Notes under the pieces: generated by a model
Told to the model about the DNA's origin: nothing
Databases searched by the model: none
What the model saw: only the letters and a program-made list of their open reading frames with translations
Origin: Pseudonocardia xinjiangensis
Lineage (GTDB): Bacteria; Actinomycetota; Actinomycetes; Mycobacteriales; Pseudonocardiaceae
Assembly: GCF_012911925.1 (NCBI RefSeq)
Contig: NZ_JAAXKY010000002.1
Coordinates: 62,001-126,000, forward strand
Direction: 5' to 3'
Length of the DNA stretch: 64,000 nucleotides
Shown: positions 50,961 to 64,000 of the stretch, in pieces
How positions within the stretch are numbered: position 1 is the stretch's first letter
Layout: every line of letters starts with the position of its first letter
Position numbers and translations under genes: made by a program

Positions 50961-51720
50961 GACTCCGGGATTTCCGGATGACTGAATGTTCCGGCATGAG
51001 AGGAGACGCCCCTATCGCCGTGCAGATAAAGCGCCCGCAGGAACTGCGCGATCCCGGTCGATAGTCGCGTATGAAGGGCGATTCAGGCCGCGCTAGCGAC
51101 GGCGGCTGGAGCGACCTCGATCGCGAGGATGGGCGTCAGCGCGCCGGAAGCGTCGGACGAACGAAGAGTCGCGCCAGGCTGATCGAGCCCAACACGAACA
51201 AGCACACCATGCCGTAGTCGAAAATGACGTGGCCCACCGCCGTGCACTCGCTGATGTTGCGGAAGATGGCGGGCGAGTGCGGCCATTCCCAGCGCCGCGC
51301 TCGACGGCGGTGAGCGAGCACACCCGGGTGTTGCCAGCGAGGGGGTCACAAGGCCGGAACCGCACCCTGCTCGCCCCGGAACTGAGCGGCCCGATCACCC
51401 GCTACCGGTTCGACATCACGCTACGGATCAGTGGTGAAACGATTTTCTTTCTCGTCTGACCAGGAGGGAGACCTCCTTCCGAGGAGTGTGATCCCGCATC
51501 TGTTCGAGCCTCCGCGCGGTCTGGTTGGACGTCTACTCGCTGACTATCGACACTTCGTAAGGACCACGATGATGCACTGGAGCGGCGACCCGTTCGACGC
51601 GGATCTGGAACTCTCCCGATTGCAGCGGGTAACGAGCAGAGTGGCAGGGGCAGGGGCAGCCAGGCTCGCGAAGAACTGCGCCGGCTTGTGGATCGACTAC
51701 GAGTGTGCCGGTCGTCGAGC
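50961..51720. other. Gene-poor stretch with minor ORFs
   Basis: No convincing gene. A minus frame at 51136-51321 encodes NISECTAVGHVIFDYGMVCLFVLGSISLARLFV, which looks like one membrane helix of a lost protein. A plus ORF at 51431-51724 (97 codons, MHWSGDPFDADLELSRLQRV) overlaps the next gene and has no known motif. Codon bias is weak and base composition lower than in the neighbours. Confidence 0.45.
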
Positions 51721-52575
51721 GTGATCTCGTCCCAGAGCGGGTTCCGTCGTCACGAGTTGGGTGAGTTCCTCAAGGCGCGGCGTCGGCAACTGGTGCGCGC
51801 TGAGCTGGGTCTGCCCCCCGTCTTGGGGAGGGGTGTTTCCCGGGTGCGCCGTGAGGAGGTTTCCTGCCTCTCTGGGGTGAGTGTCACCTGGTACACGTGG
51901 CTGGAGCAGGGCCGTCAGATCAAGCCGTCCCGGCAGGTGCTGGACGCGCTGGCCCGGACCCTGCGCCTGTCGCCCGCCGAGCACGGCTACATCCTGTCGC
52001 TGGCCGGGTACTCCGCCCCCCAGTCGATCCCCGAGCCGAGCGCTGAGGCTGCCCCGCCACACGTGCAGCGGTTGCTTGAGTCACTCGATGGGTTCCCGGC
52101 CTATGTGATCGCCCCACACTGGGCGATATGGGGTTGGAACGCGGCCTATACGGCCTTGTACCGGGACCTGGCGCGAGTTCCGCCGGCGGACCGAAATTTG
52201 CTGTGGTTGATCTTCACCGATCCATACCTGCGCGAGTTGATGCCGGACTGGGGGTTCATGAGTCGCCGTCACGTTGCCCAGTTCCGGGCCGAGGCCGGAC
52301 CCCGGCTGGGCCATCCGTCGTTCTCCCGTCTGGTGCAGCGGCTTCTGCAGGCCAGTGAGGCGTTTCGCGCGGCCTGGGAGAGCCACGACATCGAGGGATT
52401 CGCCTCGCGGGAACGGCTCTTCCGACATCCGGTCGTCGGCGACCTTCATCTGGAGCACTACCGTCTGGCGCCATCGGATCATCCGCATCTGCGCCTGGTG
52501 ATCTACACGCCGGTGCTCACCACCGACTCTCCGCAACGCCTGAGGCGCCTGGTCGGCGAGGAGTCCCACACGTGA
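51721..52575 (+). CDS. MmyB-like XRE-family transcriptional regulator
   Basis: 284 residues from GTG 51721. N-terminal HTH_31 domain: LGEFLKARRRQL, VSRVRREEVSCLSGVSVTWYTWLEQGR, SRQVLDALARTLRLSPAEHGYILSLAG. The C-terminal PAS-like MmyB ligand domain follows (YVIAPHWAIWGWNAAYTALYRD, LLWLIFTDPYLRELMPDW, LFRHPVVGDLHLEHYRL), known to bind fatty-acyl or other hydrophobic ligands in relatives. It stands directly beside the 3' end of the lipid operon, convergent with it, and could sense its product; that is inference. Confidence 0.92.
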   Translation: MISSQSGFRRHELGEFLKARRRQLVRAELGLPPVLGRGVSRVRREEVSCLSGVSVTWYTWLEQGRQIKPSRQVLDALARTLRLSPAEHGYILSLAGYSAPQSIPEPSAEAAPPHVQRLLESLDGFPAYVIAPHWAIWGWNAAYTALYRDLARVPPADRNLLWLIFTDPYLRELMPDWGFMSRRHVAQFRAEAGPRLGHPSFSRLVQRLLQASEAFRAAWESHDIEGFASRERLFRHPVVGDLHLEHYRLAPSDHPHLRLVIYTPVLTTDSPQRLRRLVGEESHT

Positions 52576-52615: not shown

Positions 52616-53626
52616 TCAGCCCGATGGCGGAAGCTCCGGCCACACCAGGGCAGCTGATCCCCACGTGGCACCGCCGCCGAAGGCGGCGACTGCGAGCTTG
52701 TGGCCGGCCCGCAGGTCCCCGGCTGCCGCCGCTTCGGCCAGAGCGATCGGGATCGACGCGGCGGCCGTGTTGCCGACCCGGTCGAGGTTGACGAGGGTGC
52801 GTTCGGCGGGGATGCCGAGCCGGGCGGCGGTGGCCTCGAGGATGCGCCGGTTGGCCTGGTGGCCGACGAACCAGTCGACGTCCCGCACCGACCAGCCGAC
52901 CCTGGAGAGCACGGTGGCGGTGGAGGCGGTCATGTGCGCGACCGCGTGCCGGTAGACGGCCTGGCCCTGCATCGCGAAGAAGCCGTCCGCGGGGTCCGCG
53001 CTGATGGGTTGCCTTGACCCGCCGCTGCGGACCTGGATCAGCTGCTGCAGGCCCCCGTCACTCCCGAGCTCGACGTCGAGGATGCCGCAGCCACCGGGCT
53101 CCGCCCGCAGCACGACCGCGCCCGCCCCGTCACCGAAGAGGAACGCGGTCGCCCGGTCCGCGGGGTCGACGATCGTCGAGAACGTGTCCACGCCGATCAG
53201 GAGGGCCGAGCCGGCTGCCCCGGACCGAAGCATGCCGGTGGTCACCGCGAGCCCGTAGACGAACCCGGAGCAGACGGCGTTCAGGTCGAACGCGGGAACC
53301 GCGCCGAGCCCGAGCCGGCTGCTCACCGCAGGTGCCGAGGCGGGGCAGGGATGGTCCGGCGTCGTGGTCGCGAGGACCACGAGGTCGACCGCCTGCATCC
53401 CGGCCGATGCCAGCGCTCTCGCTCCGGCCTCGACGGCGAGGTCCGATGTCGCCGTCCCGGGGTCGACGACGTGCCGCTGCCGGATGCCCGTGCGGGTCCT
53501 GATCCACTCGTCGGACGTGTCGAGGTGCTGGGCCAGCTCGGCGTTCGTGACCACTCGCGGGGGCAGGGCGTGGCCGATGCCGGCCACCACGACACCCTGC
53601 GCCGCCGTCTCGGGGGTGCCCGTCAT
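52616..53626 (-). CDS. FabH-like beta-ketoacyl-ACP synthase III
   Basis: 336 residues, ATG 53626. The thiolase-fold triad is complete: C119 in FDLNAVCSGFVYGL, H256 in VGHQANRRILE, N286 in DRVGNTAAASIP. KAS III enzymes condense an acyl-CoA or acyl-ACP with malonyl-ACP, or in secondary metabolism form esters or transfer acyl groups. As the last gene of a ten-gene operon and its only ketosynthase, it would do a single condensation or an acyl-transfer step, not iterative elongation. Overlaps the FAD enzyme stop by 4 bp. Confidence 0.92.
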   Translation of the reverse strand: MTGTPETAAQGVVVAGIGHALPPRVVTNAELAQHLDTSDEWIRTRTGIRQRHVVDPGTATSDLAVEAGARALASAGMQAVDLVVLATTTPDHPCPASAPAVSSRLGLGAVPAFDLNAVCSGFVYGLAVTTGMLRSGAAGSALLIGVDTFSTIVDPADRATAFLFGDGAGAVVLRAEPGGCGILDVELGSDGGLQQLIQVRSGGSRQPISADPADGFFAMQGQAVYRHAVAHMTASTATVLSRVGWSVRDVDWFVGHQANRRILEATAARLGIPAERTLVNLDRVGNTAAASIPIALAEAAAAGDLRAGHKLAVAAFGGGATWGSAALVWPELPPSG

Positions 53627-54987
53627 CGTGCCCTCGTTCCGGCGTGATCTCGCGCAGCAGGCAGCGGGGCCGTCGCGCCGGGTCGCAGCACGGCGGCGAG
53701 GACGGCCGGCGCGAGGAGGGCCGCCGGCGGGTCCACCAGGTTGGCCACGCGCAGGAACGCCCGCGCGACGGCAGGACTGCGATGGGCGGCCAGCTGCACG
53801 CGGCGGACGTAGGTGTCCAGTACCCGTGCGAGCAGCGGCCGGGTGCCGTCGACCTCGGGAAGGGCGAGGTCGGACCGGGTGGCGATGTCCCACACCCTCC
53901 GGCAGACGGGCGCGAGCGCGCGATAGTAGCTCCCGGCGTCGAGGGGTCCGGGTGCGGCGAGCCACTCCCGCAGCACCAGCGCCTGCTGGGCGGCGAGCGA
54001 CATGCCCTGCGCGTAGAGCGGGTTGACGCTGCACACGGCGTCCCCGATCGCCACGACGCCCGCCGCCGGCGCGGGCAGCCGGTCGTAGCGCCGCCACCGG
54101 GACCCGCGGAACCGGAAGGGCACCGGGTCGGTGACCGGCTCGGCGTCCGCGATGAGCTCTGCGATGTCGGGGACGGGCAGGGTCGCGGCCCACGCCGTGA
54201 ACCCGGCGGCGTCGGCGGGTGGCGCGTCGCCGAGGATCCCCGCGAGGGTCACCTGCCACCGGTCACCCTCCACGGCGAGGGCTCCGCCGCCGCGGGAGCG
54301 AGGGATCGTGGACACGATGACGCTGAGCCGGCCGCCGAGCTGGTCCGTGCGCCGCCGGTAGAGCCGCGTGGCGTAGGCGAGGTCGACGTCGACGCGGTCC
54401 TCGACGGGTGCCGGTTCGCCCAGCGTGGTGAGCCAGGCCGGCAGCCGGGAGCTGCGGCCGGAGGCGTCGACGACCAGCCGGGCGTCGATCGTCTGCTCGC
54501 CGGTCGCCCGGCGTACCCGCACTCCTCCGACGGCTCCGTGGGGTCCGCGCACGAGCCCGACGGCGGTGGCAGGCGGCGCGAACGCGACGCCGGGCAGGGC
54601 TGCCGTGCGGGCCCGGAGCACCTGCTCGAGCAACGGCCGGGTGGACAGCACCGACCGCAGGCCGGTGGACGTGGCGTGGAGCCGGCGGCCGTGCAGGTAC
54701 CAGCTCGTGTCGCGCAGCGGCTCGCCGTCCGCTGCGCCCGCCGCCACCAGCTCGTCGGTGAGGCCGGGGTGCAGCTCCTCGATGATCCGCCTGCCGCCGT
54801 CGAGCAGTCCGTGCAGGTGCGCCCCCTGCGGCACTCCGCGCCGCACCAGGCCGACCGTGGTGTCGCCGTCCCGCTCCACGATTGTCACGCCGTCGAACGC
54901 GCCGCTGAGCACTCGGGCCGACAGGAGCCCGGCGATCCCGGCGCCCAGCACCACGGCGTGGCCCCGTCCCGCCGCCGTCCTGGTCAC
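53623..54987 (-). CDS. FAD-dependent oxidoreductase (geranylgeranyl-reductase/halogenase-like fold)
   Basis: 454 residues from GTG 54987. Dinucleotide motif AVVLGAGIAGLLSARVLS, Glu-binding VTIVERD, LVVDASGRSSRLPAWL and the GD motif GVVAIGDAVCSVNPLYAQGMSLAAQQALVL. Lacks the WxWxIP motif of tryptophan halogenases. This subgroup appears as epoxidases, reductases or halogenase-like enzymes in lipid and polyketide loci. Coupled by 4-bp overlaps on both sides, so certainly part of the operon. The reaction is unknown; epoxidation or reduction of an unsaturated acyl chain would fit the two desaturases. Confidence 0.85.
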   Translation of the reverse strand: MTRTAAGRGHAVVLGAGIAGLLSARVLSGAFDGVTIVERDGDTTVGLVRRGVPQGAHLHGLLDGGRRIIEELHPGLTDELVAAGAADGEPLRDTSWYLHGRRLHATSTGLRSVLSTRPLLEQVLRARTAALPGVAFAPPATAVGLVRGPHGAVGGVRVRRATGEQTIDARLVVDASGRSSRLPAWLTTLGEPAPVEDRVDVDLAYATRLYRRRTDQLGGRLSVIVSTIPRSRGGGALAVEGDRWQVTLAGILGDAPPADAAGFTAWAATLPVPDIAELIADAEPVTDPVPFRFRGSRWRRYDRLPAPAAGVVAIGDAVCSVNPLYAQGMSLAAQQALVLREWLAAPGPLDAGSYYRALAPVCRRVWDIATRSDLALPEVDGTRPLLARVLDTYVRRVQLAAHRSPAVARAFLRVANLVDPPAALLAPAVLAAVLRPGATAPLPAARDHAGTRAR

Positions 54988-56660
54988 GGGTACAGCCCCT
55001 CGACCTGCGCCCGGAACGCGTCCTCGATGACGTCGCGGCGCATCTTGAGTGTTGGTGTCAGGTGTCCGGCGGTGACGGTGAAGTCCTCCGTCAGGACCGC
55101 GAACCGGCGGATCGACTCGGCCCGCGACACGAGCTCGTTCGCGGCGTCGACGGCGCTCGTGAGCTCGGCGCGCAGCTCGGGATCGGCGACGAGCGAGGCC
55201 GGATCGGCGGCCCGGTGGTGGCGTCGCGCCCAGGCCAGCACCGCCGCGTGGTCCAGGGCCAGCAACGCGGTGACGTAGGGGCGGCCCTCGGCCACGACCA
55301 TGGCGCTCGCGACGAGCGGGTGCAGCCGCAGCCGGTCCTCCAGCGGCACGGGCGCCACGTTCTTGCCGCCCGTGGTCACGAGGATCTCCTTGCGCCGCCC
55401 CGTGATCCGCAGGAACCCGTCGGGGTCGAGTGCGGCGAGGTCTCCGGTGTGGAGCCACCCGTCCTCGGCGGGCTGCGGGTCGGGCCAGTAACCGGGGGAG
55501 ACCTGCCGGCCACGGACGAGCAGCTCGCCGTCCTCGGCGATCGCGACGGTCGTGCCCGGCACCGGGCGCCCCACCGTCCCGATCCGGTTGGTCGCGGGGA
55601 TGTTGACCGACACGGCGGTGGCCGACTCCGTCAGCCCGTAGGCCTGCAGGACGGTGACACCGTGACCGGCGAAGAACTCGGCGATCGGTGCGTCGAGCCG
55701 GGCGCCCCCACAGATGACGTGGCGCAACGCCGTGCCGAGCATGGGGTGCCGGCCCGGAGGCCCGCCTGCCGCGACGATGCCCTTGCGCAGCTTCTCCAGC
55801 GCGTAGGGCACCACGGCGAGCCAGGTCGGCTCGAACGCGGCGAGCTGACCGACCATCTCCGGCACGCCGGGGGCGAGCGCGGTGCGGGAACCGCTGTAGA
55901 GGCCTGCCTGCAGGACGGTGCGTCCGAAGACATGGGCGAGCGGGAGCCCGACGATGGTCGCGGGCTGTCCTGCGTCCCGGTCGGCGAACAGTTCCGTGCA
56001 GTGCTCCACCACCGCAGCGGCGGCCGCGAACAGGTTGCGGTGGGTCAGGACGCAGCCCTTGGGCAGAGCCGTCGTGCCCGAGGTGTAGACGATGCTCGCG
56101 ACGGAGGAGGCGCGCACCGCTGCCCGTGCCGCGGTGGGGTCGGCGGGTTCCACGGCCCCCCAGCCGCCGGGGTCGCGGTCCGGCTCGACGAGCCCGTCCA
56201 GCGAGAGCAGCGCGACGCCGCCGCGTACCTCGCCGGGAACATCGCCCTCCCGTCCGTCCTCGGCCAGGCAGGCGGTCGCCCCGCTGTCGGTGAGGATATG
56301 GCGCATCTGCGCGGGCGAGGACGTCGGGAAGATCGGCACGGTGATCAGGCCGACCAGCGCGGCGGCCAGGTCGGCGACCGCCCACGCGTAGCTCGTGCGG
56401 CCGAGGATCGCCACCCGGTCGCCGGGGCGCAGGCCCCGGCCGAGCAGCCGGGCCGCGGAGGCGGCGACGTCGTCGTGCAGCTGGGCCCAGGTCCGGTCCT
56501 CCCATCCGTCGGGCCCGAGCCGGGACAGCGCGACCGCATCAGGGTCGCGGGCGAGCCCGAGGTCGAGCAGGTGGGCCAGACCGACGTCGTCGGGCAGGTC
56601 GGGCCCGCCCGGGTTCGTGGAGGTCAGGGCGGCCGGGGCGGCCTGCACGGGAGTGCTCAC
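54984..56660 (-). CDS. Long-chain acyl-CoA synthetase
   Basis: About 558 residues from GTG 56660 (GAGG eight bases before); GTG 56678, overlapping the thioesterase stop, is the alternative. ANL-family motifs: IVYTSGTTALPKGCVLTHRN (A3), QAYGLTESA (A5), LHTGDLAALDPDGFLRITGRRKEI (A7/A8) and LTPTLKMRRDVI with the late Lys (A10). Similar to FadD15-type enzymes. Two acid-activating enzymes in one operon (this and the fatty acyl-AMP ligase) suggest two different acyl inputs, or one for import and one for loading the ACP. Confidence 0.9.
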   Translation of the reverse strand: MSTPVQAAPAALTSTNPGGPDLPDDVGLAHLLDLGLARDPDAVALSRLGPDGWEDRTWAQLHDDVAASAARLLGRGLRPGDRVAILGRTSYAWAVADLAAALVGLITVPIFPTSSPAQMRHILTDSGATACLAEDGREGDVPGEVRGGVALLSLDGLVEPDRDPGGWGAVEPADPTAARAAVRASSVASIVYTSGTTALPKGCVLTHRNLFAAAAAVVEHCTELFADRDAGQPATIVGLPLAHVFGRTVLQAGLYSGSRTALAPGVPEMVGQLAAFEPTWLAVVPYALEKLRKGIVAAGGPPGRHPMLGTALRHVICGGARLDAPIAEFFAGHGVTVLQAYGLTESATAVSVNIPATNRIGTVGRPVPGTTVAIAEDGELLVRGRQVSPGYWPDPQPAEDGWLHTGDLAALDPDGFLRITGRRKEILVTTGGKNVAPVPLEDRLRLHPLVASAMVVAEGRPYVTALLALDHAAVLAWARRHHRAADPASLVADPELRAELTSAVDAANELVSRAESIRRFAVLTEDFTVTAGHLTPTLKMRRDVIEDAFRAQVEGLYP

Positions 56661-56670
56661 TCCGGCCGCC

Positions 56671-57138
56671 TCAGACACCGAGCAGCTCGGGCGCGACGGC
56701 CAGCTCGCGCAGCCGCTCACGCGGACGCTCCACCAGCCGGCGCCGGGACAGGTCGAGCAGCCCGGAGACGCTGGTGACCTCGGCGGCGAGCACCCCGTCG
56801 GTCCGGGTCACGCGCTGGACGATGCGGGCGGTCTTGCGCTCGCCCCAGTGGAACTCGCAGCCGACGTCGACGACGTCTCCGTAGCGCAGCTCGTGCCGGT
56901 AGCTGATCGTGGTCTCCAGCATCGCGGGCATGACGCCCGCGGTGAGCAGGCGGTCGACCGTGAGCCCGGCCTCGGCCAGGCACTCCCAGCGGGCCTGCTC
57001 CGCGTACTGCATGTACACGGTGTGCGCGACGTGGCCGAGCGCGTCGATCTCGTAGCCGCGCACGGCGAAGCGGGACAGGTGAGGGTGCTCCGCACCGGCG
57101 AGCTTCTGCGGGGCGGCGGTCTCAGGGTCAGCGGTCAT
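56671..57138 (-). CDS. Hotdog-fold acyl thioesterase (4HBT type)
   Basis: 155 residues, ATG 57138. 4-hydroxybenzoyl-CoA-thioesterase-like pattern: RGYEIDALGHVAHTVYMQYAEQARWECLAEAG (the Asp-x-x-G-H-V-x-x-x-x-Y segment) and ETTISYRHELRYGDVVDVGCEFHWGERKTARI. Such proteins hydrolyse acyl-CoA or acyl-ACP. Coupled to the desaturase gene above it by 4 bp. It could release the finished acid or proofread the ACP; a second hotdog protein is five genes upstream. Confidence 0.88.
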   Translation of the reverse strand: MTADPETAAPQKLAGAEHPHLSRFAVRGYEIDALGHVAHTVYMQYAEQARWECLAEAGLTVDRLLTAGVMPAMLETTISYRHELRYGDVVDVGCEFHWGERKTARIVQRVTRTDGVLAAEVTSVSGLLDLSRRRLVERPRERLRELAVAPELLGV

Positions 57139-58040
57139 CGCGGGCCTCCGGTGGGAACGGCGAGGGTGCGGCAGGAGTCGACGAAGCGGACGAGCTCGTC
57201 GAGCGGATCCGTACGGACGTCGACGGCGCGGTCGATCACGGAGATGAGGTGCTCGTAGGCGTCGGTGTGGTCGTAGCGGGCCACGTCGGCGATCCGCAGG
57301 GCCCATCGCCAGTAGCCCCGGACCGTGCCGGCAAGGGGCATCCGGAAGTCGGCGATCACGTCGCGGACCGGCCCGGCGACGCGGTCGCCGTGCACACGCA
57401 GGTACCTGCTCACCACGTCGGCGAAGAACGTGAAGTGGCGGGCCTCGTCCCGCGAGAGCCGCGTGAGCAGGTCGGCGAGCACCGGATCGGCGACGTCCGC
57501 CCGCAGCTGCTGGTAGTAGATCTGGGTCGCCTTCTCCTGCACCAGCGCGTAGGTGAAGAACTGCACCGGGTGCTCGAACGGCAGGGTGAACGGCGCCCGG
57601 CCGTATCCGGTGAGGTCGGCGCGCAGCGCATCGCGCTCGCGCATCCCGGCCGCCCGCTGGTAGCGGGCCAGCGCGCGGGCGTGCGTGTCCTCCTCGGCGG
57701 CCCACCGCACCGTGAAGTGGTAGAGCTCGCGGTGGTGGGTGAAGACGGCGGGGTCGACGCGGGAGTCCAGCGGGAAGTGCCGGTGGTAGATGTCGAAGTA
57801 GCCGGGCAGGTGGTCCTCGATCACCGTGACGAACTCGACGGCCGAGCGCTGGCCGTCGGTCAGGCGGTCGGCGTCCGCCGATGCCCAGTCCAGGCTTCGT
57901 TCGGCGTCCCAGCGCCGCTCGGGCGGCAGGGCGGCGAGGAAGGTGTCCACCGCTTCGCCGAGCTGGTCGGTGGTGATCAGCTCCGCGCGCCAGCGCTCCG
58001 GCTCGTGATGCGCCGCGGCCGGCCGGTCCTCGACGGTCAT
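57135..58040 (-). CDS. Diiron acyl-ACP desaturase-like enzyme (ferritin fold)
   Basis: 301 residues, ATG 58040. It has the complete diiron ligand set of soluble acyl-ACP desaturases: E75 in VIEDHL, E117-x-x-H120 in WAAEEDTHARAL, E169 in VQEKATQ and E199-x-x-H202 in SRDEARHFTFF. Spacing matches plant and mycobacterial (DesA) desaturases. It would introduce a double bond, or another oxidative change, in a chain bound to the operon's ACP, using ferredoxin from elsewhere. A second, diverged copy of the fold lies in the same operon. Confidence 0.88.
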   Translation of the reverse strand: MTVEDRPAAAHHEPERWRAELITTDQLGEAVDTFLAALPPERRWDAERSLDWASADADRLTDGQRSAVEFVTVIEDHLPGYFDIYHRHFPLDSRVDPAVFTHHRELYHFTVRWAAEEDTHARALARYQRAAGMRERDALRADLTGYGRAPFTLPFEHPVQFFTYALVQEKATQIYYQQLRADVADPVLADLLTRLSRDEARHFTFFADVVSRYLRVHGDRVAGPVRDVIADFRMPLAGTVRGYWRWALRIADVARYDHTDAYEHLISVIDRAVDVRTDPLDELVRFVDSCRTLAVPTGGPR

Positions 58041-58891
58041 CGCCCGTTCCGCAGCGTCAGGCCGTAGTGCTTCGTCGTGAAGCCCCATCCGGCGTTCGCG
58101 ATCTCCAGGTAGTGGGTGAGCCGCGTGGCCAGGCCGTCCTCCAGCGCGTCCAGCCGGTCGGCCGCCGCGGCCACGTTCGCGATCCAGGCGTCGATGGTGC
58201 GCCGGTAGTGATCGGTGAGGTCGTCGACGGCCACCACCGCGAAGCCGGCGGTCTCCGCCGCCGCCACCAGCTCCGACAGCGGCCGCAGCCGGCCGTTGCC
58301 GAAGATCGTGTTCCGGACGTAGTCCGTGCCCGGACGGGCGTCGAACTCGGCCTGGACCGCCGGGGTGCGGAAGCAGCTCTCGGAGACGTAGAAGCGGCCA
58401 CCGCGGCGCAGCATCCGGCGGGTGCGCGTGAACACCGCGGGCAGGTCGGTCATGTGGATCACGGACCCGAGTGCGGCCGCGGCGTCGAAGCTGCCGGCGG
58501 GCGCGTCGAACTCCTCGAACACGCCGTGGTGCACCCGGACCCGGTCGGCGAGCCCCCGCCCCGCCGCCGTGGCGACGATGTGGTCGCGCTGCCGGGCCGC
58601 GGGCGTGACTCCGGTGACCGTGCAGTCGTAGCGGCCCGCCAGGAACAGCGTGAGGGCGCCCCAGCCGCACCCGATGTCGAGCACGCGTCCGCCGTCGCTG
58701 ATGCCGATCCGGTCGGCGACGAAGCGGAGCTTGTGCCGCTGCGCGGCGGCGAGGTCGTCGCCGTCCCGCAGGTACAGCCCGGAGCTGTACTTGCGCATCG
58801 GGTCGAGGAACTGCTCGAACACGGCGGGGTCGAGGTCGTAGTGCTGGTTCGTCGCGTGGGCGGGTCCCTCTGCCGCGACCGTCGCAGTCAC
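58037..58891 (-). CDS. SAM methyltransferase of cyclopropane-fatty-acid synthase type
   Basis: 284 residues, GTG 58891. Starts with HYDLDPAVFEQFLDP and YSSGLYLRDGDDLAAAQRHKL, as CFA/mycolic-acid cyclopropane synthases do, then the SAM motif VLDIGCGWGALTLFLAG and GVTPAARQRDHI. The first loop, the MFEHVG-like segment that usually holds the bicarbonate-binding Glu/His, reads AALGSVIHMTDL here. It may therefore methylate or cyclopropanate a double bond made by the desaturases, or act on a hydroxyl. Tightly coupled within the operon, next to the ACP. Confidence 0.88.
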   Translation of the reverse strand: MTATVAAEGPAHATNQHYDLDPAVFEQFLDPMRKYSSGLYLRDGDDLAAAQRHKLRFVADRIGISDGGRVLDIGCGWGALTLFLAGRYDCTVTGVTPAARQRDHIVATAAGRGLADRVRVHHGVFEEFDAPAGSFDAAAALGSVIHMTDLPAVFTRTRRMLRRGGRFYVSESCFRTPAVQAEFDARPGTDYVRNTIFGNGRLRPLSELVAAAETAGFAVVAVDDLTDHYRRTIDAWIANVAAAADRLDALEDGLATRLTHYLEIANAGWGFTTKHYGLTLRNGR

Positions 58892-59157
58892 GACGGGCCG
58901 CCATCGAGCGCGGCGGACACCACGTCACTGACCTGCTCGACGGTGCTGACCCCGAAGACGTCCTCGTCCTCCAGCTCGATGTCGTAGCGCTGCTCGATCT
59001 TCGCGATGATCCGCAGGACCTTGATCGAGTCGGCGCCCTCGACCGTTCGCAGGTCGGTGTCGGTGCGGAGGTCGGCAGCGGCGACCCCGAGCACCTCGGC
59101 GACGATCTCGACGACGGATCCGGTGATCTCGGCACGGGCGATTTCGGACGTGGTCAT
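58888..59157 (-). CDS. Acyl carrier protein
   Basis: 89 residues, ATG 59157. Acidic four-helix ACP with the phosphopantetheine site S44 in VEGADSIKVLRII; the usual DSL is DSI here, as in several dedicated secondary-metabolism carriers. Helix III ends DVFGVSTVEQVSDVV. It is the expected substrate carrier for the fatty acyl-AMP ligase, both desaturase-like enzymes, methyltransferase and FabH-like enzyme. A dedicated ACP separates this pathway from general fatty acid synthesis. Confidence 0.93.
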   Translation of the reverse strand: MTTSEIARAEITGSVVEIVAEVLGVAAADLRTDTDLRTVEGADSIKVLRIIAKIEQRYDIELEDEDVFGVSTVEQVSDVVSAALDGGPS

Positions 59158-59645
59158 GTCGGGTCCTCTCCTCGGGGGCTGGTGCGGGGAAGCCCGGCGT
59201 CGTCGGCGGGCACCGGCCGGTAGCCGGCGGTGGCGGTGGCCATGAGCTCGCCGTGCACGTCACGGACCTCGGCCCGGCCGGCGATCGTCCCGTCCGGGGC
59301 ACCGGTGATCCAGGCGTGGCAGCTGTAGCGGCCGCCGATGGCGACGACGCCGACGTAGCGCATGCGCAGGCTGGTGGTCACCGCCACCGTGCCGTGGCGC
59401 AGCACCACGAGATTGCCCATCGTCTCGTCGCAGACCAGCGCGACGATCCCGCCGTGCAGGACCCCCGGATAGGACTCGAAGCGCCGGTCCAGGCACAGGT
59501 CCGTGACGATGCCGCTGTCGCTGCCGGGGCGGAAGCGCAGCCCGAGACCGACGGGGTTGGCCGGCGCGCAGCCGAAGCAGTGGGAGTCGGCGCGACCGGC
59601 CCACGGCAGCGTCAGCTCGGCGCCGGGTGCGGCGAGATCCGTCAT
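59154..59645 (-). CDS. PaaI-type hotdog thioesterase
   Basis: 163 residues, ATG 59645. DSHCFGCAPANPVGLGLRF at the N-terminus and YPGVLHGGIVALVCDETMGNLVV in the hotdog helix (the HGG motif) identify the PaaI/UPF0152-like group, which hydrolyses CoA or ACP thioesters. With the 4HBT protein it gives the operon two hotdog enzymes of different subclasses. It could alternatively act as a dehydratase-like hotdog, but no such motif is visible. Confidence 0.88.
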   Translation of the reverse strand: MTDLAAPGAELTLPWAGRADSHCFGCAPANPVGLGLRFRPGSDSGIVTDLCLDRRFESYPGVLHGGIVALVCDETMGNLVVLRHGTVAVTTSLRMRYVGVVAIGGRYSCHAWITGAPDGTIAGRAEVRDVHGELMATATAGYRPVPADDAGLPRTSPRGEDPT

Positions 59646-60463
59646 CCGAGAGCCCCCGCGAGCGCCCGGCGCACCTTGCCGTTGCTGCCCAGGTCGAGCC
59701 CGGTGAGGCTGCCGAAGGTCTTGCGGATCTTGGCCTGCAGCTCGTCCAGCTCGCCCTGGGCGGCCATGCGGTCGAGGAACAGCTGGAACCCGGTGTCGAT
59801 CGTCTCGTGGCCGGACAGCGCGTCGAGACCCGACTTGAACACGCTCACCGGATGCTTGATCTTCTCGTCGGCGGTGTAGAAGTACAGCGTCTCCAGCACG
59901 GAGGCGAGCTCCTCGGGGTGCGCAGCGAGGCGAACGGCGGCGAAGTGCCGGAACTCGCGAGCATGCCCCGCCTCGTCCCGGCTGGCCCGCAGCAGCAGGT
60001 CGGCCAGCACCGGTTCCCGCACCCATGCCGACACCGAGCGGTACACGTGGTTGACGGTCAGTTCGGAGATGATGTTGGTGGCGAGCGTGGCCGACCGCGT
60101 GCTGCCGGGTTCGTAGGGCGCCCGCATGGCTGCCACCGCCCGCGAGTCCACGCTCTCCCCGACGGCCTGCAGATACGAGGTGAACCCGTAGTGGTGCTGC
60201 ACCTCCTGGTATCCCCAGATCACCGCGAAGGCCGAGAAGTCGTAGTCGTCGATGAACTCGTTCATGAATCCGTGCACCGCTGCGATCACGTTCGACTCGC
60301 CCATCACGGCGCTCTTCACGAGCGTGATGTACTCCGGCCGCACAAGACCGCGGTCGATGTCGTCGAGCGCGATCTCGGAGAAGCGCCAATGGCTCCGGTC
60401 GTAGTGCCGGAACACTCCGAGGCTGTGCATCTCCTGCATCGTGGGGACGGTCTCGGTCGTCAT
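59642..60463 (-). CDS. Second ferritin-fold diiron oxygenase/desaturase
   Basis: 273 residues, ATG 60463. Ligands: E56 in VMGESNVI, E87-x-x-H90 in WGYQEVQHHYGF, E134 in IISELTVNH, E164-x-x-H167 in SRDEAGHAREF, again the full set. Sequence around the second and fourth helices differs clearly from the 57.1-kb enzyme, so it is not a recent duplicate and likely attacks another position or makes another change, for example a second double bond, triple bond, hydroxylation or decarboxylation. Second gene in the operon, directly after the fatty acyl-AMP ligase. Confidence 0.85.
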   Translation of the reverse strand: MTTETVPTMQEMHSLGVFRHYDRSHWRFSEIALDDIDRGLVRPEYITLVKSAVMGESNVIAAVHGFMNEFIDDYDFSAFAVIWGYQEVQHHYGFTSYLQAVGESVDSRAVAAMRAPYEPGSTRSATLATNIISELTVNHVYRSVSAWVREPVLADLLLRASRDEAGHAREFRHFAAVRLAAHPEELASVLETLYFYTADEKIKHPVSVFKSGLDALSGHETIDTGFQLFLDRMAAQGELDELQAKIRKTFGSLTGLDLGSNGKVRRALAGALG

Positions 60464-62169
60464 CTCTTCACCGTGTCCTCGGTCCGGAGCGCGGCGCGCA
60501 TATCGAGCCGGCGCAGTTTTCCGCTGGTGGTTCGGGGAATGGCGCGGGGCGCCACCAGATGAACGGCGATGCCGGCCGCGTCCGTCACAGCAGCCACCCG
60601 GGCGCGCAACCGCCGGACGAGCTCTGCCCTGAGGCCGTCGTCGGTGACGGTGGTCTCGGCGACGAGGACGATCCGCTCGCGGTCCGGCGATCCGTCGGCG
60701 AACGCGACGCATCGTCCCTTGTGGACGCCGGACACCTGCCGGGCCGCGTCCTCGACGTCGAGCGGGTACACGTTCCGCCCGGCGACCGTGATCATCTCCT
60801 TGAGGCGGCCGGTGAAGAACAGCTCGCCGTCGCGCAGGTAACCCAGGTCCCCGCTGCGCAGCCACCCGTCGGCGGTGAACAGGTCCCTGCCGTCGGCCCC
60901 GGCGAGGTAGCCGGTGGTCGACATCGCCCCGCGCAGCTGGATCTCGCCGACCACGCCGTCCGGCCGGACGCGCTCGCCGTCGGCGATGCGGACCTGCATG
61001 TCGGCGACAGCCCGTCCCAGCCCCACGAGACCACGGGCGCCCGGCGCCTCGGCCGCCACCGGGACGGCCTCGCCGTGTTCCGCGAGCGCGTCGCGGTCCA
61101 CCCATTCGACCAGCGGGGCCCGGCCCGCCGGCGGCAGCGTGGCCACCAGCGTCACCTCGGCCATGCCGTAGGCGGGGACCATGGTCGGAGCCCGGAAACC
61201 GGCCGGAGCGAACCGCTCCAGGAACGCGGCCACCGATGCGGGCGACACCGCCTCCGCCCCGTTGAACGCCACCCGCCACGCCGACAGGTCCAGCCCGGCG
61301 GCATCCGCCGGCGGCACGGCCGCCAGCAGCGCGTCGTAGCCGAAGTTCGGCATCGTGGCGATCGTGCCCCTGACCTGGGCGAACTGCGCCAACCACCGCC
61401 CCGGGCGGCGAACGAAGCCGGCCGGGGACCACAGGTGCAGCGGGATCCCCCTGAACAGCCCGGTCAGCGCACCGAACAGGCCCATGTCGTGGAACAGGGG
61501 CAGCCACGAGCCGTGCACGTCGGCGGGCCCGAGCCGGATGCCGGCGGTGATGGCACGGGCGCAGTGCCAGACGTTGGCGTGGCTGAGCACGACTCCCTTG
61601 GGGTCGGCCGTGCTGCCGGACGTGAACTGGACGATCGCTGCTGACGAGGTGTCGACGGCCGAGGGTGCCGCGCCGTCGGGGACGTCCCGGGCGAGGAGCT
61701 CCCCGCTGTCGAGGACGGCCGGCCCGAGGTGGGCGAGCGCGGGGCGCATCCGGGCCGCGATGCGGTGGGAGAGCACGACGTGGGTCATCCCGGCGGCCTC
61801 GACCACCCGCTGGGTGCGGCGGACGTAGTCGGCGAGATCGGTGCCCATCGGCAGGGCGAGCGGCGCGGCGGCGGCCCCGGTGCGGACGATGCCGAAGAGG
61901 GACTGCAGGAACTCCGGGGCGTTCGGAGAGAGGATCCCGACCCGGTCTCCCGGCCGGACACCCCGCCGGGCCAGCGCGGCGGAAAGCCTCCGGGACGCCG
62001 TGGCCAGCTCGTCGTAGCGCAGCCGCTCGTCCTCGTCGGGGAAGTGCACCTGCTGCCCGGGATGCTGGGCGGCCACGATGTCCAGCGCGTCGTGCAGCGT
62101 CAGGGGGATGGTGCGGCCGGGGTCGCAGGGTGTCGTACCGGGCGTCGCCAGATATGGCGCTGTCGGCAT
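60460..62169 (-). CDS. Fatty acyl-AMP ligase (FAAL-type)
   Basis: About 569 residues from ATG 62169 (GAGGACGAG upstream); longer starts up to 62274 are open but unlikely. Motifs: VQFTSGSTADPKGVVLSH, SWLPLFHDMGLFG typical of FAALs, FNGAEAV, PAYGMAEVTLVATL, and LRSGDLGYLRDGELFFTGRLKEMITVAGRNVYP, with the PRTTSGKLRR Lys loop at the end. FAALs activate free fatty acids as adenylates and pass them to an ACP without CoA. First gene of the operon, so this step defines the starter chain. Divergent from the P450. Confidence 0.92.
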   Translation of the reverse strand: MPTAPYLATPGTTPCDPGRTIPLTLHDALDIVAAQHPGQQVHFPDEDERLRYDELATASRRLSAALARRGVRPGDRVGILSPNAPEFLQSLFGIVRTGAAAAPLALPMGTDLADYVRRTQRVVEAAGMTHVVLSHRIAARMRPALAHLGPAVLDSGELLARDVPDGAAPSAVDTSSAAIVQFTSGSTADPKGVVLSHANVWHCARAITAGIRLGPADVHGSWLPLFHDMGLFGALTGLFRGIPLHLWSPAGFVRRPGRWLAQFAQVRGTIATMPNFGYDALLAAVPPADAAGLDLSAWRVAFNGAEAVSPASVAAFLERFAPAGFRAPTMVPAYGMAEVTLVATLPPAGRAPLVEWVDRDALAEHGEAVPVAAEAPGARGLVGLGRAVADMQVRIADGERVRPDGVVGEIQLRGAMSTTGYLAGADGRDLFTADGWLRSGDLGYLRDGELFFTGRLKEMITVAGRNVYPLDVEDAARQVSGVHKGRCVAFADGSPDRERIVLVAETTVTDDGLRAELVRRLRARVAAVTDAAGIAVHLVAPRAIPRTTSGKLRRLDMRAALRTEDTVKR

Positions 62170-62430
62170 CTCGTCCTCGCTGCTCGGGCTTGCTCGGGCG
62201 GTTCGCACGGCTTTTCCGCTGTCGAGCACACCGCCGATCGGCATATCGGTCAAGTGCGCCGCGCTCCAATTCATCGCCCCATCGCTGACGCCAATCGCCG
62301 ATTGTTCACCGACGCCGTCCGCGCTCAGATTTCACGAGCGATTCACGATACGGACGAACACCCGTACACCGTGCTCGGGAGAAGCTGGTCGCCTCTTTGC
62401 AGCGCCGACCGCCGACGACGAGGAAGTGTG
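62170..62430. promoter_or_regulatory. Divergent promoter region of lipid operon and P450
   Basis: 261 bp between the two starts, less GC-rich in 62280-62370. A near-direct repeat TTTCACGA-GCG-ATTCACGA lies at about 62326-62346, and CCGATCGG/CCGAT elements at 62233-62248. A single regulator could control both sides. No regulator gene is adjacent on this end. The P450 start has AGGAAGTGTG directly before it. Confidence 0.4.
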
Positions 62431-63642
62431 ATGAGCGCTACTGCGAGTCCGCCCGTGTTCGATGCGTTCGCTCCCGAGCACCGAGCCGATCCCTATCCGC
62501 GCTACGCCATTGTGCGGGAGGCCGTTCCGTTCCTCGACAGCGGATTCGGCGTCGAGTTCGTGACCCGTCACGCCGAGTGCAGCGCAGTGCTGAGCGAGAC
62601 GCTGTGGAGCCACCGCGACGAGGCCGAGCTCTTCCACCCCGACGCCGATCGCACCGACCTGCCCACGTCGTTCCTGTGGATGGACCCGCCCGACCACACA
62701 CGGCTGCGGGGTCTCGTCAGCAAGGCCTTCACCCCGAAGCGGGTGGTCGAGCTGCGGCCGCGGATCCTCGAGCTGGTCACGGGCATGCTCGACGCCGTGC
62801 TGGCCGCGGACGAGGTGGAGGCCATCGAGGCGATCGCCTACCCGTTGCCGCTGATCGTCATCTGCGAGCTGCTCGGCGTGCCGGACGCCGACCAGGCCAT
62901 GGTGCACCGGCTCGGGCCGGGGCTCGCCCGCGGCTTCGACCCCGACCCGGTGCTCTCCCCGGAGGAGCGCCGGGCGCGGGACGAGGGCTCCCGCGAGCTG
63001 ATCGCCTACTTCCGCGCGCTGATCGCCGAGCGCCTGCGCGACCCGCGTAGCGACCTGGTGAGCGCGCTCGGTGCCGTCCACGAGCGGGGTGACACGCTCA
63101 CCGAGCACGAGATGCTCACCACCTGCATCACGTTGCTCATCGCCGGGCACGAGACCACGGTCAACATGGTCGGCAACGGACTGCTCGCGCTGATGCGCAA
63201 CCCTGGGCAGCTGGCCCTGCTGCGGGAGCGTCCCGAGCTCGCCGGGCCCGCTGTGGACGAGATCCTGCGGTACGACTCGCCGGTGCACATGACGACGCGC
63301 ACCGCCCGCGAGGACCTCGTCGTCGGCGGCCGCACGTTCCGCGAAGGCGACAACGTCTGCGTCCTCGTCGGCTCCGCCAACCGTGACCCGCGCGCCTACG
63401 ACCGGCCCGACGAGTTCGACGTGACCCGGTACGCGAGTGGCACCGCAACACCGCGGCACCTGGGCTTCGCACTCGGCATCCACTACTGCATGGGCGCGGC
63501 ACTGGCCCGGCTGGAGGGAGAGGTCCTCCTGGCCGAGCTCGCGCGCCGGGTCCGCACGCTGGAGCAGGCGGGCGATCCGGTCTACCGGCCCAACCTGCTC
63601 ATCCGCGGGCTGCGCGAGCTGCCGCTGCGGTTCACGGCCTGA
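62431..63642 (+). CDS. Cytochrome P450
   Basis: 403 residues, ATG 62431. Class I bacterial P450: I-helix AGHETTVNM (acid-alcohol pair), K-helix EILRYDSP, heme loop FALGIHYCMGAALARLE with the Cys ligand at residue 353. Soluble, so it needs ferredoxin and reductase supplied in trans. Divergently transcribed from the lipid operon with a shared promoter region, so probably a tailoring hydroxylase or epoxidase of the ACP-bound or released lipid. Confidence 0.93.
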   Translation: MSATASPPVFDAFAPEHRADPYPRYAIVREAVPFLDSGFGVEFVTRHAECSAVLSETLWSHRDEAELFHPDADRTDLPTSFLWMDPPDHTRLRGLVSKAFTPKRVVELRPRILELVTGMLDAVLAADEVEAIEAIAYPLPLIVICELLGVPDADQAMVHRLGPGLARGFDPDPVLSPEERRARDEGSRELIAYFRALIAERLRDPRSDLVSALGAVHERGDTLTEHEMLTTCITLLIAGHETTVNMVGNGLLALMRNPGQLALLRERPELAGPAVDEILRYDSPVHMTTRTAREDLVVGGRTFREGDNVCVLVGSANRDPRAYDRPDEFDVTRYASGTATPRHLGFALGIHYCMGAALARLEGEVLLAELARRVRTLEQAGDPVYRPNLLIRGLRELPLRFTA

Positions 63643-63660: not shown

Positions 63661-64000
63661 CTACGGGGCGGGGGCCCGGGCACCGGCGGCGGCCGTCAGG
63701 GCCACTGCATCGGTGTCGACGAGCACGGCGGCGTCGTCCAGCGGCTCGGCGGCGGCCACCACGGCGTCGGCGTAGACGTCGATCCGGCTCAGTGCCACCC
63801 CCGCCCGGCCGCGCGCCCGGCCGGGCGGGGACAGCAGCTCGGCGCGGTGCGCCGTGGCAGGCCCGATCCACACCGGCACCCCGGCCAGCGCGGAGGCCCC
63901 GGCGTGGTGGGTGTGCCCGCACACCACCATCCGCACGTCCGTGCCGGTGACGACGCGAGCCAGCCCCGCGGGGTCGCGCAGGTCGTTGCCGCGCATCGGG
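63661..64000 (-). CDS. Metallophosphoesterase, C-terminal part (cut by window end)
   Basis: The minus frame is open from the window edge to a TAG at 63661-63663. It contains MRGNDLRDPAGLARVVTGTDVRMVVCGHTHHAGASALAGVPVWIGPATAHRAE, whose GHTHH is the last metal-binding block of calcineurin-like phosphoesterases of the CpdA (3',5'-cyclic nucleotide or glycerophosphodiester) type. The N-terminal blocks with D-x-H and GDxxD lie beyond the edge. It ends 18 bp from the P450 stop and is convergent with it; not obviously part of the lipid locus. Confidence 0.8.
   Translation of the reverse strand, partial: PMRGNDLRDPAGLARVVTGTDVRMVVCGHTHHAGASALAGVPVWIGPATAHRAELLSPPGRARGRAGVALSRIDVYADAVVAAAEPLDDAAVLVDTDAVALTAAAGARAPAP

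Follow-up and report, generated by a model that had tools for sequence, protein, structure and literature searches.

A conserved gene block for putative acyl carrier protein-tethered tailoring accompanies PUFA-synthase-type genes in Pseudonocardia, Amycolatopsis and Frankia

We analyzed a 64,000-nucleotide stretch of the Pseudonocardia xinjiangensis genome (the window) that carries a compact set of putative acyl-tailoring genes at positions 52616-63642. The window corresponds to positions 62001-126000 of contig C221 in a 7.76-Mb genome of 308 contigs (G000). Six of its minus-strand genes form a core block. They code for a fatty acyl-AMP ligase-like enzyme (FAAL), a divergent diiron enzyme (DI1), a hotdog thioesterase-like protein (HD1), a dedicated acyl carrier protein (ACP), a methyltransferase of the cyclopropane fatty acid (CFA)/CMAS superfamily (CMT) and a second diiron enzyme that resembles acyl-ACP desaturases (DI2). 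We found that the cluster is of a known kind, a secondary-lipid cluster of the polyunsaturated fatty acid (PUFA) type, with a distinctive ACP-tethered tailoring arm. The block probably serves as the acyl-tailoring arm, working on ACP-bound chains, of a cluster for a specialised lipid, and a PUFA-synthase-type polyketide synthase (PKS) of the class called Type M would make the backbone.

The core block is conserved across several genera. A pattern scan for DI1 in named bacterial genomes returned 11 loci, all from Pseudonocardia (5) or Amycolatopsis (6); the related-locus scan detects close relatives only. In whole-genome searches, DI1 turned up in 9 of the 397 genomes searched in the order (E<=1e-20) and in 31 of the 394 searched in the class (E<=1e-15). 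Of these 31 genomes, 29 belong to family f32, which includes Frankia alni and is termed Frankiaceae here. Genes were called in the window, the 11 named loci and the fetched regions, giving 37 loci that contain DI1; long regions were called for 10 of the 29 DI1-positive Frankiaceae genomes. An earlier reading made from the letters alone (the sequence-only reading) had raised the question of whether these genes are kept together elsewhere. The exact one-strand order FAAL-DI1-HD1-ACP-CMT-DI2 is present in 25 of the 37 loci, the window counted, which excludes non-conservation. The exact blocks comprise the window, the 11 named loci, six loci from Frankiaceae and seven from elsewhere in the order, these last from genera of the window's own family and of one further family. 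DI1 is 81-84% identical to the window protein in the five named Pseudonocardia loci and 78-81% identical in the six Amycolatopsis loci. Two Pseudonocardia loci are nearest to the window in CMT (80%) and P450 (80-83%).

The other 12 loci departed from this order in several ways. Two are contig-end pieces of one genome's block (L031 and L032), and DI1 is displaced from the block order in L063 and L074. HD1 is missing from the L072 block, as tblastn confirmed. Six loci are second copies that hold fewer genes (L062, L064, L068, L070, L073 and L076), and L071 is the sole DI1 copy, of the ~50% type, in genome G695. A second DI1, ~50% identical, occurs in many Frankiaceae genomes; an ACP and in some cases HD1 or DI2 lie beside it, and no close FAAL or CMT adjoins it.

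A PUFA-synthase-type system lies 11 kb beyond the window end on the same contig (window-equivalent positions 75046 to 91459). Its genes code, in order, for a PfaA-type PKS, a FabA-bearing PfaC-like protein, PfaD, an AccA/carboxyltransferase, a biotinyl protein, a biotin carboxylase and two P450s. The PfaA-type PKS is 2143 aa long, with ketosynthase (KS), acyltransferase (AT), ACP, ACP and ketoreductase domains and a partial dehydratase. It scored 1479 bits against TIGR02813, above the cut-off of 1010. The PfaC-like protein matched FabA at 8e-35, with no KS or chain-length factor domain found in it by Pfam, and PfaD_N was matched at 1.5e-6 together with FabD_helical_ins and NMO. These matches identify a PUFA-type cluster. 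The PfaC-like, PfaD and carboxylase genes adjoin PfaA in the window genome and in two Frankia genomes. In four Amycolatopsis loci (L008, L010, L011 and L012) and two Frankia loci (L061 and L067), genes for LysR, CoA ligase, FAD enzyme, GDSL hydrolase and PfaA follow DI2 directly or one gene later. An ATP-binding cassette (ABC) transporter set is found near the block in Pseudonocardia (L003, L005, L007 and L013), in L065, L066 and L072, and in Frankia (L080 and L082). The sequence-only reading had noted that there is no modular PKS or nonribosomal peptide synthetase; this stands within 52616-63642 and fails on the contig, where the PUFA-type PKS begins at window-equivalent 75046. It had also pictured a compact, PKS-free pathway. 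We found instead that the block is accompanied by a PKS of the PUFA-synthase type, a dedicated acetyl-CoA carboxylase, P450s and an ABC transporter. A self-contained PKS-free pathway was rejected as the leading interpretation, since PfaA adjoins the block in relatives.

DI1 and PfaA frequently occur in the same genomes. A PfaA KS-AT match (E<=1e-150) was present in 32 of 38 DI1-positive genomes. By manual tally from our tables, the two genes lie within 45 kb on one contig in 25 of the 38, spanning three families, and on different contigs in six. We surveyed the class for PfaA at E<=1e-250, scoring two candidates per genome and taking the genomes to be the same 394 that were searched for DI1. 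Both genes were found in 24 genomes, DI1 only in 7, PfaA only in 2 and neither in 361 (Fisher 5e-30, which ignores shared ancestry). Three of the seven DI1-only genomes (G601, G640 and G668) hold shorter PfaA pieces. Among 35 Frankiaceae genomes, 25 carry both, four DI1 only, none PfaA only and six neither. In 200 genomes of the order searched at E<=1e-200, PfaA was detected in 10. Three of these also have DI1 (G000, G132 and G192), and in the seven without DI1 the PfaA identity is 44-57%. The counts and identities therefore indicate that close PfaA accompanies DI1 and that more distant PfaA relatives do not.

The Frankia synthase has been noted before. Shulse and Allen (2011; PMC3098273) classified the Frankia pfa-type cluster as a secondary lipid synthase, Type M, with an uncharacterised product. 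In the text available, they list it as kept in three finished Frankia genomes: F. alni ACN14a, CcI3 and EAN1pec. The block-bearing locus of F. alni ACN14a (G432) holds that genome's only PfaA match at E<=1e-150. This locus matches the Type M synthase by genome and coordinates. Literature searches found no description of the gene set and no product for its synthase. The accessible parts of other sources report an hglE-KS cluster in an Amycolatopsis (PMC12282000) and counts of hglE-KS clusters (PMC10134820). The available text of PMC8951365 yielded no FRAAL318-320 tag, and that of PMC5745019 no gene that could be placed in this cluster.

We examined the predicted functions of the core proteins. 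Pfam comparisons agreed with the names given in the sequence-only reading, and the first ferritin-fold protein was identified by its ligands and fold. The FAAL gene (60460..62169, minus strand) codes for an AMP-binding protein whose best PDB match is the fatty acyl-adenylate ligase 3pbk (3.7e-84), aligned over residues 24-558 of 569. FadD32, FadD23 and FadD28 are among its 18 PDB matches at E<=1e-30. The nearest solved relatives are thus FAALs. The alignment with 3pbk is free of long gaps and includes a stretch that we take to be the FAAL insertion, which is therefore retained. The ACP gene (58888..59157, minus strand) codes for a PP-binding protein (Pfam) with a GADS motif in its translation. 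The proposed ACP-tethered logic is supported in that the FAAL gene lies beside that of this dedicated ACP. HD1 (59154..59645, minus strand) is a PaaI-type hotdog protein that matches Pfam 4HBT; its TIGR00369 score is below that model's cut-off.

Both diiron enzymes keep a full set of metal ligands, as the sequence-only reading had proposed. In DI2 (57135..58040, minus strand), E75, E117, H120, E169, E199 and H202 are invariant in 20 of 20 aligned sequences. DI2 belongs to FA_desaturase_2 (PF03405) and is the only match to that family at E<=0.001 in the whole genome; its best PDB match is mycobacterial DesA2. It carries the E/ExxH/E/ExxH ligand pattern of soluble acyl-ACP desaturases and, in all 20 sequences, a Thr at E169+3, three positions past the third Glu. 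We take this Thr to be position 199 of the castor desaturase, which presumably matters for desaturation; the DI2 alignment and the title of a T199D PDB entry are consistent with the assignment. On these features DI2 looks like an acyl-ACP desaturase.

DI1 (59642..60463, minus strand) matched no Pfam or NCBIfam family at E<=0.001, PF03405 included. Its ligands E56, E87, H90, E134, E164 and H167 are invariant in 23 of 23 aligned sequences. Its AlphaFold model has a pLDDT of 92, and the best PDB matches are plant acyl-ACP desaturases (TM-score 0.61-0.66, root-mean-square deviation 5-9), with R2-like oxidases ranking close behind. In ligands and predicted fold DI1 resembles soluble acyl-ACP desaturases. 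The position of the pocket Thr is occupied by Val in 22 sequences and by Ala in one. DI1 is, as judged from its residues, a divergent enzyme that keeps all diiron ligands.

CMT (58037..58891, minus strand) matches PF02353 (CMAS) and has the CFA/CMAS fold, with TM-scores (query) of 0.82-0.87 to UmaA, CmaA1, CmaA2, MmaA2 and PcaA. We take Cys, Glu, His and Tyr to be the bicarbonate-binding residues of CFA synthase. In CMT the Glu, His and Cys positions are replaced and Tyr229 is retained. The alignments differ in detail: the replaced Glu falls three columns apart in phmmer and mafft (on Gly or Ile of the window protein), and the two programs pair the His with different Ser residues. All four residues are retained in L088, a CFA synthase of the same genome, which was compared without L089 and L090. 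CMT also has invariant motifs of its own, SESCFR and NAGWGxTTKHY, and SESCFR and other motifs are present in 19 of 19 sequences. We rejected CMT as an ordinary CFA synthase on the bicarbonate residues.

The core block sits in a longer run of genes in the window. The ten minus-strand genes and the plus-strand P450 gene are all open and show coding-type codon-position GC. Gene calls came from our own open reading frame scorer, so start positions are approximate. As the sequence-only reading described, the minus-strand genes are mostly coupled by 4-bp stop/start overlaps (8 of 9 junctions), and the P450 gene diverges from them over 261 bp. The FAAL start (62169) and the P450 start (ATG 62431) flank a putative shared promoter at 62170..62430. 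The P450 gene (62431..63642, plus strand) codes for a PF00067 protein. At least one P450 is encoded in 29 of the 37 loci; for the 25 exact-order loci the figure is 23.

Downstream of DI2, a second hotdog thioesterase-like protein, HD2 (56671..57138, Pfam 4HBT_2), is followed by an acyl-CoA synthetase-like protein (54984..56648, AMP-binding with AMP-binding_C_3), here called the CoA ligase, whose start codon is uncertain. The junction between these two genes is the only one without a 4-bp overlap. With a ligase start at 56648 the two genes are 22 bp apart, and an alternative upstream GTG at 56720 would give an overlap with HD2. Next come an FAD oxidoreductase of the Trp_halogenase/FAD_binding_3 type by Pfam (53623..54987) and a FabH-like ketosynthase III (52616..53626; ACP_syn_III/ACP_syn_III_C, NCBIfam beta-ketoacyl-ACP synthase 3 above cut-off), all four on the minus strand. 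FAD enzyme homologues are found in 16 of the 37 loci, the window counted, and also in L080 and L082. The CoA ligase is found in 14 of the 37, again counting the window; its relatives in 13 of the 36 other loci are 45-68% identical, two of them truncated by the locus end. HD2 is present in four of the five named Pseudonocardia loci, the fifth being a 4.4-kb contig, and in none of the six Amycolatopsis loci within the flanks examined. Within the same limits, a FabH homologue adjoins the block in one of the 11 named loci (L003), and L032 has a 36% relative. FabH and HD2 are variable extras outside the conserved core. The one condensation that the sequence-only reading had inferred from FabH was rejected as a defining step, as relatives of the block mostly lack an adjoining FabH gene.

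We propose a model for how the cluster works. PfaA, PfaC and PfaD would build a long acyl chain from malonyl-CoA supplied locally. FAAL would adenylate the free acid and load it onto the small ACP. DI2 would introduce a double bond, and DI1 would carry out another O2-dependent reaction on this ACP-bound chain, either further desaturation or hydroxylation. CMT may add a methyl group on or close to the unsaturated position, independently of bicarbonate. The hotdog enzymes would release the product, which the P450s, FAD enzymes and Fer2 reductase may oxidise further. We infer both the order of these steps and the product. The two oxidative steps and the added methylene or methyl of the sequence-only reading are likewise conditional, with DI1 lacking the desaturase Thr and CMT lacking the bicarbonate residues.

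Several observations weigh against this model. The best NCBIfam model for FAAL is a long-chain-fatty-acid--CoA ligase (PRK07768, 389 of 572 bits), and no curated FAAL model reached its cut-off (PRK09192, 371 of 600 bits; MbtM, 280 of 621; FadD32, 237 of 975). An ABC transporter operon separates the tailoring block from the PKS half in the window genome. Two genomes, G717 and G748, have 55-57% identical PfaA without DI1. PfaA is absent (E<=1e-150) from six of the 38 DI1-positive genomes (G076, G338, G490, G519, G617 and G709), and in G479 it lies 1.2 Mb from DI1. The arm can therefore exist without the PKS or away from it.

These last genomes bear on a stand-alone pathway, in which FAAL would load a cellular or external free fatty acid, tailoring would take place on the ACP, and the chain would be released or undergo one FabH condensation, with the PKS separate. 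The 1.2-Mb distance in G479 favors such a route, as does the lack of PfaA in 4 of the 29 DI1-positive Frankiaceae genomes. In two Frankiaceae loci from genomes without PfaA (L065 and L066), the FAAL-DI2 block adjoins P450s, an ABC transporter set and an SDR-like gene. These loci keep the block without PfaA, and the arm may therefore draw its chain from elsewhere. However, DI1 and PfaA are linked in 25 of 38 genomes from three families, all 25 PfaA-positive Frankiaceae genomes carry DI1, and the FabH beside the block is not conserved. We consider a stand-alone pathway unlikely and favor a tailoring arm that serves the PUFA-type synthase.

We also considered modification of an envelope lipid in the manner of meromycolates, where DesA desaturases and CMAS methyltransferases work on an ACP-bound long chain. 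Both families act on carrier-bound long chains, the best PDB match of DI2 is DesA2, and the nearest folds to CMT are UmaA, CmaA1, MmaA2 and PcaA. However, the bicarbonate Glu, His and Cys found in CMAS and CFA synthases are replaced in CMT, and the linked synthase is of the PfaA type. To our knowledge, Frankia, Amycolatopsis and Pseudonocardia make no mycolates, and we regard this route as very doubtful. A JamABC-type tag route, in which a diiron enzyme would convert an ACP-bound acid to an alkyne or terminal alkene, is highly improbable. In its favor, FAAL, desaturase and ACP make up the minimal JamABC-type set, and two diiron enzymes could desaturate twice in succession. However, the JamB-type desaturases are membrane-bound, and the set includes neither a methyltransferase nor hotdog enzymes. 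Both DI1 and DI2 belong to the soluble ferritin-fold class, and we rejected a membrane-desaturase alkyne cassette for that reason.

We compared the Frankia locus with genes linked to symbiosis. PMC10252897 lists genes that the symbiotic clusters 1-3 retain, at 50% identity, and that two non-symbiotic cluster-4 strains lack. Six genes in the accessible part of the list fall inside the F. alni locus by coordinate (FRAAL3189, 3191, 3194, 3195, 3196 and 3211), with exact agreement for two of them (FRAAL3196 at 3475554 and FRAAL3211 at 3491576). The text available singles out accA and does not discuss the cluster. The FAAL-DI2 block is not in that portion of the list, and its absence fits the presence of DI1 in 7 Frankiaceae genomes without nifH above the cut-off. 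The same portion contains another desaturase/methyltransferase neighbourhood, with FRAAL3449 (putative fatty acid desaturase), FRAAL3451 (CFA synthase) and FRAAL3453 (putative peptide synthetase).

Across the 35 Frankiaceae genomes, PfaA and nifH above its cut-off are both present in 22 and both absent from 7. Three genomes have nifH only (G555, G661 and G716, all without DI1 too), and three have PfaA only (G578, G689 and G695). The association gives a Fisher p of 0.0016, which was computed on manually entered counts and ignores shared ancestry. The link between the cluster and nitrogen fixation is imperfect and suggestive only, and the PfaA-only and nifH-only genomes weaken the cluster as a strict symbiosis marker. 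We know of no carrier outside Frankiaceae that forms vesicles or is a symbiont.

These results tie a compact, strongly conserved tailoring block to an orphan lipid synthase known in Frankia since 2011. DI1 and CMT represent subfamilies with conserved but altered active sites and may hold new chemistry. A more speculative possibility, which we hold tentatively, is that the Type M synthase and an arm with a non-canonical DI1 and a bicarbonate-independent CMT make an undescribed class of long-chain, oxygenated, C-methylated lipids that serves the symbiotic or vesicle state of nitrogen-fixing Frankia, with the Pseudonocardia and Amycolatopsis relatives as culturable systems. Frankia is described in the available text of PMC8951365 as lacking genetic tools, and the Pseudonocardia and Amycolatopsis copies thus offer a route to the molecule.

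Further genes surround the cluster. Adjoining the FabH gene at 51688-52575 is a convergent regulator gene whose product has an MmyB-like (MLTR) ligand-binding domain, a type that can bind fatty acids. At the other end, a minus-strand metallophosphoesterase gene starts at 63661..64000 and runs beyond the window (L014:162-1022). The genes beyond the window end code for this metallophosphoesterase, a binding-protein ABC transporter, a Fer2 reductase, a LysR regulator, a metallo-beta-lactamase-fold protein, a DUF4442 hotdog protein, an FAD enzyme and a GDSL hydrolase. The metallophosphoesterase gene is in line with the transporter, which is of the sugar type, and this group (L014:162-5501) accompanies the cluster in several genera. 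Right after the P450s that close the PKS half, L077:17217-19901 and L078 code for more large PKS-like, FAAL/adenylation-like, transporter-like and small ACP-like proteins. Of these, the PKS-like proteins match Frankia PfaA at only ~30-36%, and the others had no match in the Frankia regions compared. These genes probably form a second cluster.

Finally, we compared the cluster with known systems. The F. alni locus with the tailoring block carries the only PfaA match (E<=1e-150) of a genome for which PMC3098273 lists Type M. The Type M description in the accessible text of that paper includes no FAAL/diiron/ACP/methyltransferase arm, and the word 'methyltransferase' is absent from its main text. 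The heterocyst glycolipid (hgl, Type F) synthases belong to the same broad PfaA-type class and also occur in nitrogen fixers (PMC3098273), whereas 3 of 25 PfaA-positive Frankiaceae genomes lack nifH above the cut-off. The window FAAL resembles E. coli FAAL (3pbk), FadD32 and FadD28 in its alignment, including the insertion stretch, but differs from known FAALs in its best NCBIfam score, to a CoA ligase model, and in its diiron-enzyme and small-ACP partners. DI2 shares its family, six ligands and Thr with soluble acyl-ACP desaturases such as castor stearoyl-ACP desaturase and DesA2. DI1 shares the six ligands and fold with these enzymes but has no Pfam match and replaces the Thr with Val or Ala. 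CMT shares a fold, a SAM-binding domain and the Tyr with CFA synthase and the mycolic acid methyltransferases (CmaA1, PcaA, MmaA1 and UmaA), but differs from them in its replaced bicarbonate Glu, His and Cys and in its own motifs.

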